Assembly: GCF_003201595.1 (NCBI RefSeq)
Contig: NZ_QJJS01000005.1
Location: 186,001-250,000 of the forward strand
Reading direction: 5' to 3'
DNA from: Sphaerotilus hippei
Lineage (GTDB): Bacteria; Pseudomonadota; Gammaproteobacteria; Burkholderiales; Burkholderiaceae_C
DNA: 64,000 bases
Under the pieces are notes generated by a model. The model did no database searches, had not been told where the DNA came from, and worked only from the letters and a program-made list of their open reading frames with translations. The position numbers were made by a program, and so were the translations under genes. The stretch's first letter is position 1. Each line of letters starts with the position of its first letter. Below, piece after piece: positions 32,773-36,047 of this stretch.

Positions 32773-34404
32773 TCAGCGCAGGAAGAGTCGGTAGACCGGG
32801 TTGTCGCTCTCTTCCACCCAGGGGTAGTCCAGCGTGTTGAGGAAGCGGCGGAAGCTCGCCCGGTCGCTGCGCGGCACCTGGATGCCCACCAGGATGCGGC
32901 CGTAGTCCGCGCCCTGGTTGCGGTAGTGGAACAGGCTGATGTTCCAGCTCGGGTGCAGGCTCGACAGGAAGCGCATCAGCGCGCCGGGCCGCTCGGGGAA
33001 GACGAAGCGGAACAGCCGCTCGTTCTCGGTGAGGGGCGAATGCCCGCCGACCATGTGGCGCAGATGCTCCTTGGCCAGGTCGTCGTGGCTGAGGTCGATC
33101 GCGTCGAAGCCGTGCTGGCGGAAGGTGTCGGCGATCTCGACCGACTCGCCGCGCCGGCTCATGCCCACGCCGACGAAGATGTGCGCCACCCGCTCGTCGG
33201 AGATGCGGTAGTTGAACTCGGTCACGCTGCGCGGGCCGAGCAGCTCGCAGAAGCGCCGGAACGAGCCCCGCTCCTCCGGGATCGTGACGGCGAACAGCGC
33301 CTCCCGCTCCTCGCCCATCTCGGCCCGTTCGGCCACGAAGCGCAGCCGGTCGAAGTTCATGTTCGCGCCGCAGGTGATGGCCACGAAGGTCTTGCCGGTG
33401 CAGCCGGTGCGCTCCACGTACTGCTTGACGGCCGCCACGCTCAGGCCGCCCGAGGGCTCGATGATCGAGCGCGTGTCCTGGAACACGTCCTTGATGGCTG
33501 CGCAGACCGCGTCGGTGTCGACCACCATGAACTCGTCGACCAGCTCGCGCGCGATGCGGAAGGTCTCCTCGCCCACCTGCTTGACGGCGGTGCCGTCGGC
33601 GAACAGGCCGACGTCGTTGAGCCGCACCCGCTTGCCGGCCTGGACCGAGCGCATCATCGCGTCCGAGTCGGTGGTCTGCACGCCGATGACCCGGATCTCC
33701 GGGCGCACCGCCTTCAGGTAGGCGGCCACGCCCGAGATCAGTCCGCCCCCGCCGATGGCCACGAAGACCGCGTCGATCGGGCCCTGGTGCTGGCGCAGGA
33801 TCTCCATCGCGATCGTGCCCTGGCCGGCGATGACCAGCGGGTCGTCGAAGGGGTGCACGAAGGTCAGGTGGTCGCGCTGCGCGATCTGGACCGCGGTCTC
33901 GTAGGCATCGGAGTAGCTGTCGCCCTCCAGCACCACCTCGCCCTTCAGGGCACGGACGGCATCGACCTTGACCTGCGGGGTCGTGCGGGGCATCACGATC
34001 AGCGCCCGGCAGCCCAGGCGCTGCGCGCCCAGCGCCACGCCCTGGGCGTGGTTGCCGGCCGACGCGCAGATCACGCCGCGCGCCAGTTCCTCGGCCGACA
34101 GGTGGGCCATCTTGTTGTAGGCGCCACGCAGCTTGAAGCTGAAGACCGGCTGGTTGTCTTCGCGCTTGAGCAGCACCTGGTTGCCCAGCCGCGCCGACAG
34201 GTTGCGTGCGGTCTCGAGCTCGGTCTCGCGAGCCACGTCGTAGACCTTGGCGGTCAGGATGCGTGGCAGGTAGCGACTCAGGATGGCTTCGCGCGGCGTC
34301 GGGCCGGTGCCGGCCCGGGGCTTGCGGCGTGCGGCGGTGGCCGAGGGAGGGGTGTCCGGGACAGAGGCGGGGCTGGTGGAACGCTTGGCGCGCGCGGTGG
34401 GCAT
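32773..34404 (-). CDS. ilvA: Threonine ammonia-lyase, biosynthetic
   Basis: This 543-residue PLP enzyme makes 2-oxobutanoate from threonine, the first step of isoleucine synthesis. The catalytic domain shows the PLP lysine in FSFKLRGA, GNHAQGVALGA and the glycine loop AIGGGGLISG. Two C-terminal ACT-like domains (from about residue 370) begin EREALFAVTIPEERGSFRRF, indicating feedback control by isoleucine. An N-terminal basic, Ser/Pro-rich extension of about 45 residues is not part of the usual enzyme. The ATG at 34404 has no clear ribosome-binding site. A separate terminator and sRNA candidate lie upstream. Confidence 0.96.
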   Translation of the reverse strand: MPTARAKRSTSPASVPDTPPSATAARRKPRAGTGPTPREAILSRYLPRILTAKVYDVARETELETARNLSARLGNQVLLKREDNQPVFSFKLRGAYNKMAHLSAEELARGVICASAGNHAQGVALGAQRLGCRALIVMPRTTPQVKVDAVRALKGEVVLEGDSYSDAYETAVQIAQRDHLTFVHPFDDPLVIAGQGTIAMEILRQHQGPIDAVFVAIGGGGLISGVAAYLKAVRPEIRVIGVQTTDSDAMMRSVQAGKRVRLNDVGLFADGTAVKQVGEETFRIARELVDEFMVVDTDAVCAAIKDVFQDTRSIIEPSGGLSVAAVKQYVERTGCTGKTFVAITCGANMNFDRLRFVAERAEMGEEREALFAVTIPEERGSFRRFCELLGPRSVTEFNYRISDERVAHIFVGVGMSRRGESVEIADTFRQHGFDAIDLSHDDLAKEHLRHMVGGHSPLTENERLFRFVFPERPGALMRFLSSLHPSWNISLFHYRNQGADYGRILVGIQVPRSDRASFRRFLNTLDYPWVEESDNPVYRLFLR

Positions 34405-34440
34405 GGGATGGTCTGCGGCTGGCGGGTCAGGGAGCCTTCG

Positions 34441-34446
34441 ATCATA
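34441..34446 (-). promoter_or_regulatory. Putative -10 for ilvA
   Basis: TATGAT on minus lies between the sRNA terminator (34459-34489) and the ilvA ATG (34404), giving a leader of about 30 nt. No clear -35 is seen because the T tract occupies that region. It would allow ilvA to be expressed independently of the upstream terminator. Confidence 0.35.
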
Positions 34447-34458
34447 AGCCGCACGGGC

Positions 34459-34489
34459 AAAAAAAAGCCCGAGGCATGAACCTCGGGCT
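34459..34489 (-). terminator. Strong intrinsic terminator upstream of ilvA
   Basis: A perfect 9-bp stem (34466-34474 with 34481-34489) with a 6-nt loop is followed on minus by an 8-nt T tract (34466-34459). It ends 54 bp before the ilvA start codon. Confidence 0.9.
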
Positions 34490-34566
34490 GAATCCACCTT
34501 TAGAGGAGGGTGGAGGAGACAATCGGTGTGAGGGCAAACCAGTAATGCTGATTCAGCGCAACACGT
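34459..34566 (-). ncRNA. Candidate small RNA with two anti-Shine-Dalgarno CUCCU motifs
   Basis: On minus, a promoter-like pair (34601-34573) precedes about 108 nt ending at a textbook terminator. The RNA contains CUCCU at 34518-34514 and again within the 10-nt loop (34508-34499) of a 6-bp hairpin (34514-34509 with 34498-34493). No start codon with a meaningful ORF is present. CUCCU is complementary to ribosome-binding sites, as in several known sRNA families that expose CCUCC in loops. The alternative is an ilvA leader with an attenuator, but no leader peptide rich in Ile, Val, Leu or Thr codons is visible. Confidence 0.55.
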
Positions 34567-34572
34567 GATACA

Positions 34573-34601
34573 AGTTTAACCCAATCGATGCTGCATTGCA
34601 A
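34573..34601 (-). promoter_or_regulatory. Putative promoter of the small RNA
   Basis: TTGCAA (34601-34596) and TAAACT (34578-34573) are separated by 17 bp; each matches the sigma-70 consensus at 4 of 6 positions. The predicted start is near 34566. Confidence 0.45.
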
Positions 34602-34703: not shown

Positions 34704-35141
34704 ATGGAATGCACCATCCACTGGATGCCCTCGTCGGGCATGGCTTTTTCGGCCGAGACCGGCAGCGGACACCTGATCACGATGGACGGCGCGCCCGAAG
34801 GGGGCGGCCGCAACCTGGCGCCCCGCCCGATGGAGACCCTGCTGGCCGGCGCCGGTGCCTGCACCGCCTACGACGTGGTGCTGATCCTCAAGCGCGGGCG
34901 CCATCAGATCGAAGGCTGCCAGGTGCAGGTCAAGGCGGACCGCGCCGAGACCGAGCCCAAGGTGTTCACGCGCATCGTGATGCACTTCGTCGTGACCGGC
35001 CGCGCGCTGCCGCAGGCTGCCGTCCAGCGGGCGGTGCAGATGTCCTACGACAAGTACTGCTCGGCCACCGCCATGCTGGCCAAGACCGCCGAGATCGTGC
35101 TCGAGGTCGAGGTCAGGGACTCGGCCGCCCCCGCGACCTGA
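34704..35141 (+). CDS. OsmC family protein
   Basis: This 145-residue protein resembles the YhfA-like branch of OsmC/Ohr, small dimeric proteins whose members reduce peroxides with a Cys pair. Both conserved cysteines are visible, one in AGAGACTAYDVV and one in DKYCSATAML. The N-terminus is the usual beta-strand start (MECTIHWMPSSGMAFSAE). The ATG at 34704 follows a GGAAG site; the frame stays open upstream to 34596, but that part overlaps the sRNA promoter and is not conserved in style. It ends 3 bp from the convergent coq7. The peroxidase role is by family only. Confidence 0.92.
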   Translation: MECTIHWMPSSGMAFSAETGSGHLITMDGAPEGGGRNLAPRPMETLLAGAGACTAYDVVLILKRGRHQIEGCQVQVKADRAETEPKVFTRIVMHFVVTGRALPQAAVQRAVQMSYDKYCSATAMLAKTAEIVLEVEVRDSAAPAT

Positions 35142-35144
35142 GCA

Positions 35145-35816
35145 TCAGATCCGGTGGGCGACGGTGGTCATCACCCTGGCCGCCGCACGCATCGTCCACC
35201 GCACGGGAGCGGGCAGGGCCACGCCCCCCGAGTCCAGCGCTTCCCGGGCATGGCGGACTTCGTCGTCGCGCATCTGCGTGACGATGGCTCTGGACGCGTG
35301 ATCCTGTGCTGGCAGCCGTTCGAGGTGGCCGTCCAGGTGCTGTTCCACCTGGCGTTCGGTCTCGACCACGAAGCCCAGGCTGACCCGGTCGCCCGCCACG
35401 CCGGCGACCGCGCCGATCGTGAAGGCGCCGGCGTACCACAGCGGGGTCAGCCAGCTGATGCGGTCGCCCAGTTCGTCGAGGCGCTCCTTGGTCCACGCGA
35501 GGTGATCGACCTCATCCTGTGCAGCATGCTCCAGTTGGGTGCGCAACTGCGGCGAGCGGGTGGTCAGGGCCTGGGCCTGGTAGAGCGCCTGGGCACACAC
35601 TTCCCCGACGTGATTCACCCGCATCAAGGCCCCGGCCAGGCGACGCTCCGGCTCCGACAGCTCGCTGGCGTCCTGCCGGTCGATCTCCAGCGTCCGGGCC
35701 GGATTGGCTCGGCTGGCGCAGGAGGCGCCCGAGACCGTCCTGAGCGCGTGGTCGATGGACATCAGCAGCCGGTCGACCGGGCTGAACCGTGGAGAAGGCG
35801 AGTGGGTGCCTGACAT
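35145..35816 (-). CDS. coq7: 2-polyprenyl-3-methyl-6-methoxy-1,4-benzoquinone monooxygenase
   Basis: This 223-residue di-iron hydroxylase acts in ubiquinone synthesis. The carboxylate and His ligands expected for the ferritin-like four-helix fold are present in [38 protein letters not shown] and [14 protein letters not shown] hydrophobic segment ([20 protein letters not shown]) is suited to membrane association. The ATG at 35816 gives the usual length; the upstream in-frame extension to 35969 is not supported. It is preceded by a 231-bp interval shared with the divergent porin gene. Confidence 0.95.
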
Positions 35817-36047
35817 GCGTGGACCTCTGGGTTGGCCTGGGGCCTGTATTGGATCTGCTCGAGCCGTGTCCGGATTGACGCGTTGCTGACAGACAACAGC
35901 TGACATCCAGTCGCCATCCGGCCTTGGTAATCTCCGCTCCGGTCTGGTGCAATACCCGCTTGCTTCCACTGAGGGAGCAGGACAGATCAGCTCTTCAGCC
36001 AGGTTCAGATTCTGAGCTTCTGCTGATTAACCTAGGAGATCGTTGCA

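Follow-up and report, generated by a model that had tools for sequence, protein, structure and literature searches.

An RF02278 small RNA between ilvA and an osmC-like gene in Sphaerotilus hippei has a predicted PhaR operator over its promoter

Judged by its covariance model match, the Sphaerotilus hippei DNA analysed here (the window, 64,000 nucleotides) encodes on its minus strand a clear member of RF02278, the "Betaproteobacteria toxic small RNA" family, and a dyad over the -35 hexamer of its promoter fits the published PhaR consensus. As a whole, the locus is quite probably best explained as an RF02278 anti-Shine-Dalgarno sRNA under PhaR/PHB control. The RNA itself is ordinary for this known family, and the PhaR link is the part not found in print in the literature covered. 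The dyad, which was absent from the original prediction for this region, is its most informative part.

The window was searched using cmscan, and RF02278 was its sole match at gathering thresholds (72.3 bits against a gathering score of 50, E = 1.2e-12). The match runs from 34521 to 34459 and covers model positions 1-64 completely, so that the named Rfam family put forward earlier as a test was matched over all 64 positions. Because the whole RNA reaches 72.3 bits with RF02278, the sRNA structure, as judged by the model, is not due to chance. Like RF02278 in Rfam 15, the RNA is full length and has the UGUCUCCUCCA site at its 5' end, two hairpins with unpaired CU-rich sites, a CU-rich loop, and a second hairpin that is the terminator; it shows no difference of kind. 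Other families were considered and rejected, with scores of 29.2 bits for anti-hemB RF02837 (gathering score 49.5) and 19.3 bits for suhB/MmgR RF00519 (gathering score 41), and scores under the respective gathering cut-offs for SorY and ncS16. The Burkholderia cenocepacia ncS35 was also set aside as a relative, being without an Rfam match according to its authors. At E ≤ 0.001, RF02278 was found once in the own genome, in 170 of 200 genomes of the host family (141 over the cut-off), and in 192 of 300 genomes of the order (116 over the cut-off). Six to nine matches each were present in G233, G281, G388, G470, and G495 of family f7 and in G341 and G485 of family f31; G233, G417, G444, and G518 have two matches within a few hundred bases.

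All parts of the RNA locus lie on the minus strand. The -35 hexamer TTGCAA (34601-34596) and the -10 hexamer TAAACT (34578-34573) are separated by a 17-nt spacer. They have 8 of 12 consensus matches by hand count, and a promoter scan of 2 kb at 9 of 12 matches returned no match; on consensus alone the putative promoter is weak, and its support is conservation. From the -10 position and by analogy with S17 of Bordetella pertussis, transcription is predicted to start at about 34566, followed by a 5' leader (34566-34522) and by the RF02278 body (34521-34459). Site 1, UGUCUCCUCCA, occupies 34521-34511 at the 5' end of the body and contains the first CUCCU (34518-34514), the last base of which also belongs to the stem of the first hairpin (34514-34493). 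This hairpin has six base pairs, TCCACC (34514-34509) with GGTGGA (34498-34493), enclosing the 10-nt loop CUCCUCUAAA, in which Site 2, the second CUCCU, lies at 34508-34504. The intrinsic terminator (34489-34459) consists of a stem of 10 pairs (34489-34466) and eight T (34466-34459). Three terminator-like sites including this one were found in 2 kb, compared with 0.8 in shuffled sequence. The folding energy of the 108-nt RNA is -39.1 kcal/mol, the shuffle mean being -24.5 (z = -4.48), and none of 200 shuffles was as good. Minus-strand frames starting in 34566-34459 have 2-65 codons as far as translated, and the one from 34497 is in the ilvA frame; on the plus strand, a mechanical open reading frame of 120 aa (34206-34568) runs antisense across the sRNA. 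A TATGAT at 34446-34441, 3' of the terminator, is by sequence a possible -10 of an ilvA promoter. The features claimed in the original prediction were thus read back at their positions, namely a sigma-70-like promoter, a body without coding capacity, a strong terminator with an 8-T tail, one CUCCU in a 10-nt loop closed by a 6-bp stem, a second on its 5' side, and the TATGAT. Its sRNA of about 108 nt stands as a stand-alone sRNA, and its length is revised: in view of the processing of S17 and NcS27, the 108-nt transcript is probably the precursor of a form of about 63 nt (34521-34459), the 5' leader probably being removed by RNase E, as predicted from S17.

Conservation was examined in 110 loci from the host family, made up of the 30 best-scoring loci and 80 chosen from the listing, with eight second copies included deliberately (seven away from osmC; the eighth, L104, linked to it). 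In the window, the neighbours are ilvA, encoding threonine dehydratase (32773-34404, minus strand; PF00291, PF00585), as the conserved downstream neighbour, a divergent and conserved osmC-like gene (34704-35141, plus strand; PF02566), and conserved coq7 (35145-35969, minus strand; PF03232), which also adjoins Bordetella S17; a porin gene lies further out, beyond the osmC-like gene and coq7. Eight of the 110 loci are away from ilvA, osmC, and coq7, and the other 102 are called linked. In an alignment of 44 of the 110 copies, Site 1 was invariant (44/44), and 9 of 15 consensus pairs had pair-keeping changes on both sides. In the first hairpin, compensatory changes were seen at two of six pairs, the other four being constant. 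The proposed covariation check was thereby answered, with CU-rich sites kept and stems covarying. Across all sets, 249 of 263 distinct homologues had the first 11 nt unchanged, and a CUCCU, CCUCC, or UCCUC followed 3' of them in 229 (both among the matches listed), where the 263 include the named set, found via Site 1 itself, so that this share is not independent. Among the matches listed, both variable pairs of the first hairpin were formed in 248 of 259 parsed homologues (11 unpaired as parsed, 4 unparsed); of these 248, 167 have C-G at both, 47 have U-G and 30 have U-A at the first, and 4 combine C-G at the first with a different pair at the second. The seven loci of family f20 (L344-L350) have GGTGTGG in place of GGTGGA in the first hairpin, and in L345-L347 the operator lies 5' of the presumed -35 or the -10 lies outside the rule used.

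The PhaR consensus TGCRNYGCASMA rests on footprinting and on aligned promoters from Bradyrhizobium (PMC6201568). The exact 12-mer TGCAATGCAGCA at 34600-34589 of the minus strand, overlapping the -35 hexamer and the spacer, fits this alphaproteobacterial consensus and is a predicted PhaR operator; a TTGC-NNN-GCA-N-CA dyad over the -35 recurs in the upstream regions of the family loci. The own genome has one PhaR (TIGR01848, 152.7 bits) and two phasins (PF09361), with the exact motif upstream of both and the sites flanking a TATACT. The sRNA 12-mer is identical to the site before one of these phasin genes (G000:C3:193743-193754:+). On both strands of the own genome, the exact PhaR-type motif occurs 182 times against 26 for the reversed pattern, about once per 24 kb; these 182 sites could reveal a wider PhaR regulon. 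Phasin upstream regions (the two of the own genome and 30 from 28 other genomes) contain the exact motif in 30 of 32 cases and the reversed pattern in none. The two without it are both from family f17, in which the dyad is present at the sRNA and the motif is missing at two of the three phasins examined. Within a genome, phasins and sRNA have similar dyad forms, mostly GCAGCA/GCAACA in family f1 and often GCACAA in f4.

Within 150 nt upstream, the exact operator was found in 69 of the 102 linked loci and the reversed pattern in none (0/102), compared with 12 of 3,248 tiles of 150 nt taken from elsewhere in these loci. Because the family loci are where the motif was initially spotted, this count is not blind; the consensus itself is published. 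The TGCNNNGCA dyad covering the -35, combined with a TANNNT -10 at 16-18 nt, was present in 90 of the 102 and in 3 of 2,567 control tiles. Within 200 nt, either the exact motif or the dyad with its -10 was found in 93 of the 102 linked loci, in two of the eight unlinked copies, and in 13 of 2,567 control tiles; the nine linked loci without it include L042, which has a short upstream stretch. A further set of named loci, at least 79 among the matches listed, was collected by the exact pattern of Site 1 and stem, and 65 of these 79 carried the motif or dyad with -10, a tally from which L223 was dropped. L182 and L042 were kept in their respective sets despite short upstream stretches. L223, on a Micromonospora contig, is one core-pattern match without a T run after it and is probably due to chance. 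In a B. parapertussis MAG (L198), the promoter is TTGCAA-17-TACTAT with the dyad TGCAACGCACAA across it.

Co-occurrence of operator and PhaR was uninformative in the host family because 195 of its 200 genomes have PhaR, and this test, without power there, was moved to the order, where 209 of 300 genomes (completeness ≥90% requested) have it. The operator criteria were fixed in writing before the order loci were fetched, the PhaR link having already been seen in named genomes. Of the 100 over-cut-off loci compared, the 66 from genomes with PhaR were chosen, mostly one per genome, and the 34 from genomes lacking it were those over the cut-off among the matches listed. By either criterion, the operator was present in 48 of the 66 PhaR-positive loci, representing 44 of 59 genomes; the PhaR-less set among the matches listed had it in none of its 34 loci and 27 genomes (Fisher p = 6e-12 for genomes, uncorrected for relatedness). 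The exact motif alone gave 41 of 59 against 0 of 27 genomes, and the reversed pattern was found in neither group (PhaR-less genomes among the matches listed). At the family level, with f1 counted, 14 of 18 PhaR-carrying and 0 of 6 PhaR-less families had the operator (Fisher p = 0.0016), and in the mixed families f4, f9, and f43, the genomes lacking PhaR were also without it (both among the matches listed). In genus g236, the genome with PhaR has TCTTGCAACGCAACAAA-17-TAATAT and the genome lacking PhaR is without the dyad. In 28 named genomes among the matches listed, chosen to take in most operator-less loci, the operator was missing from all five that lack PhaR and from 5 of the 23 that carry it; L171, L175, L182, and L187, also without operator, were outside this test. 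G437 of the order sample is seemingly the organism of L150 in the named sample. PhaR-less loci often share another dyad, AATATTAGA-TAA-TTCTAATAAC, seen in 21 of the 34 against 3 of the 66 loci with PhaR (among the matches listed). Examples are in L262-L294 (e.g., L267, L272, and L286) and in L158 and L180. This pattern, like the sigma-54 pattern below, was written after looking.

Three features expected of a PhaR-regulated gene were found together, with the consensus at the promoter, phaR and phasin operators in the genome, and the operator missing where PhaR is missing among the matches listed. A less likely reading, to which we give a small but real chance, is that the sRNA part holds but a different regulator recognizes the dyad, or that the dyad is just how the -35 region looks across the family. 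PhaR binding here is predicted, from a consensus of Bradyrhizobium origin, and some genomes with PhaR are without the dyad (15 of 59; in four sampled families, f21, f39, f43, and f48, no PhaR-carrying genome had the operator by these criteria). That reading is countered by the similarity of the dyad when the phasins and sRNA of one genome are compared, by its absence from 27 of 27 genomes lacking PhaR among the matches listed, by the contrast within genus g236, and by conservation extending to spacer positions, to which sigma-70 is mostly indifferent.

The relation to ilvA bears on whether the RNA is instead an ilvA leader or attenuator, in which conditional termination would alternate with read-through yielding ilvA mRNA. 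The distance from the T run to the ilvA ATG is 54 nt here, 94 of the 110 family loci have a co-directional ilvA no more than 1 kb downstream, and the order ilvA-sRNA-osmC, with osmC divergent upstream, is kept in 93 of those 94; osmC is in the other orientation in two of the 110. An attenuator would be tied to ilvA in every locus, but the sRNA is kept with ilvA displaced or not nearby. Six loci with osmC and coq7 have no adjacent ilvA, with ilvA displaced by about 2.7-2.9 kb in L063, L066, and L067 and not in the stretch examined in L007, L088, and L104. In nine Bordetella, Achromobacter, Alcaligenes, and Candidimonas loci, ilvA was in the stretch examined in none, and coq7 was upstream in eight (for L185, only 226 nt upstream was available). 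Seven second copies lie elsewhere, behind sigma-54-like sites. Of the seven short frames in 34566-34459, six have no isoleucine codon, and the seventh, with two, starts at the end of the T run. We regard an ilvA attenuator as very improbable. The ilvA neighbourhood is probably not the function, because coq7-linked loci keep the sRNA without ilvA nearby, and the earlier suggestion that the terminator need not be an ilvA attenuator held. So did its main claim of a stand-alone anti-Shine-Dalgarno sRNA, the RNA being an RF02278 member that persists where ilvA is elsewhere. A 2026 paper tied ilvA and sigma-54 to PHB synthesis in Halomonas (PMC13101641), which may bear on the ilvA neighbourhood here.

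The second copies away from osmC (L103 and L105-L110) have sigma-54-type -24/-12 sites in seven of seven cases, 38-44 nt before the sRNA core. The consensus for such sites is YTGGCAY-N5-YTGC. The pattern was found in none of the 102 linked copies and in 1 of 3,537 control tiles, and a second RF02278 copy may thus be run from RpoN in some genomes. No shared domain was found beside these copies among 10 open reading frames at five of the seven loci; three of the 10 had no domain match, and L103 was without any.

By its sequence and neighbourhood, the locus is read as an orthologue of S17, which in B. pertussis adjoins coq7, is transcribed from a sigma-A promoter (TTGCAT-17-TACTAT), yields a stable 67-nt form upon RNase E cleavage, and co-precipitates with Hfq (PMC11722255). 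S17 represses an mRNA near its ribosome-binding site (RBS), with one pairing confirmed by compensatory mutation, and without S17, 91 genes rise (92 in the abstract), 70 of them with complementarity at or near the RBS (PMC11722255). The RF02278-like 5' sites of S17/S17S, the coq7 neighbour, and the sigma-70-type promoter with a 17-nt spacer are shared with the locus here; S17 differs in its 190-nt precursor, in that no ilvA neighbour is reported, and in being linked to Bvg mode by the authors (PMC11722255). A repressor of the S17 promoter was postulated and left unnamed in that preprint, the text of which does not contain the word PhaR; the comparison of the Bordetella promoter with the operator was made on the B. 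parapertussis MAG (L198). Burkholderia cenocepacia has four RF02278 homologues, NcS27, ncS03, ncS05, and ncS62, against one copy here, likewise with CU-rich sites facing the RBS, and NcS27 is a 92-nt RNA processed to a short form (PMC5688073, PMC4603805). Three of the four have an upstream motif in common, unnamed in the main text, and glucose medium increases ncS03, ncS05, and ncS27 by factors of 8.0, 6.9, and 4.3 (PMC5688073). Higher NcS27 levels are likewise reported under starvation, in stationary phase, and in biofilms (PMC5688073), so inputs besides PHB likely act on these sRNAs. Overexpressed NcS27 weakens growth on a number of substrates, and the RNA is regarded as a metabolic-shutdown regulator (review PMC10987360). 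That the RNA in the window is toxin-like, inhibiting growth as in toxin-antitoxin or maintenance systems, as the family name and the inhibition of Escherichia coli by cloned relatives (reported in PMC4603805 and PMC7011215) could suggest, is highly improbable given the conservation of the locus between metabolic genes, the description of NcS27 as acting on metabolism (PMC10987360), and growth inhibition not being seen with S17S in exponential phase in E. coli BL21 (PMC11722255).

In the Ralstonia model, PhaR represses at low PHB and moves to the granules once PHB forms (PMC6201568), and its regulon includes Ralstonia phaP1 and phaP3 (PMC11332829). The locus resembles that regulon in its exact operator consensus, equal to the own-genome phasin operator, and differs in that the regulated product would be a betaproteobacterial sRNA (PMC6201568, PMC11332829). 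A precedent in another class is MmgR of Sinorhizobium meliloti (RF00519, alpha-r8), a short sRNA with a conserved promoter dyad between -35 and -10 that is under negative control by AniA (PhaR); it differs in its Rfam family, in its reported targets, which are phasins, and in its positive control by NtrC (PMC8401924). In the open-access literature covered, MmgR was the only PhaR-controlled sRNA found, and a PhaR link to RF02278 was not found in print, where further papers may hold one.

The preferred reading, an RF02278 sRNA under PhaR/PHB control, starts from observed features: family membership, conserved sites, stems, and locus, the operator, its identity with a phasin operator, and co-occurrence with PhaR. 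What we infer for S. hippei is that the RNA is transcribed and processed and that PhaR binds its promoter, along with the sign of the regulation and the targets, the mechanism being modelled on S17 and the B. cenocepacia relatives. The RNA would be a trans-acting RF02278 sRNA with its own sigma-70 promoter, made as a precursor of about 108 nt and probably trimmed by RNase E to about 63 nt. Its two exposed CU-rich sites, at the 5' end and in the first loop, would pair with Shine-Dalgarno regions of many mRNAs and lower translation, keeping ribosomes off messages for uptake and catabolism. Without PHB, PhaR would occupy the operator over the -35 and spacer, and the sRNA would be low; as PHB granules form, PhaR would be titrated away, sRNA and phasins would rise together, and the raised sRNA would damp uptake and catabolism of further nutrients. 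Such a cycle fits the rise of the relatives in glucose medium and their reported targets. A whole-genome search for targets by the exact complement of Site 1, GGAGGAGACA, gave five occurrences, one being the sRNA locus itself and the other four not convincing RBS.

RF02278 is widespread in the order (192 of 300 genomes), and its studied members alter many mRNAs. We lean, with some reserve, towards a wider reading in which RF02278 sRNAs across Betaproteobacteria form the RNA branch of PhaR regulation, a PHB-released anti-Shine-Dalgarno RNA lowering nutrient uptake and catabolism, with the other dyad replacing the operator in many genomes that lack PhaR and extra copies in some genomes under sigma-54. 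If this is true, PhaR would be the postulated repressor of the S17 promoter in Bordetella, a question left open in the preprint to which the PhaR operator is one testable answer, and PhaR might read the unnamed common motif in Burkholderia. Carbon storage as PHB would then be linked to translation control, with the sRNA as a signal of stored carbon, in a betaproteobacterial circuit parallel to that of alphaproteobacterial MmgR despite the different Rfam families.
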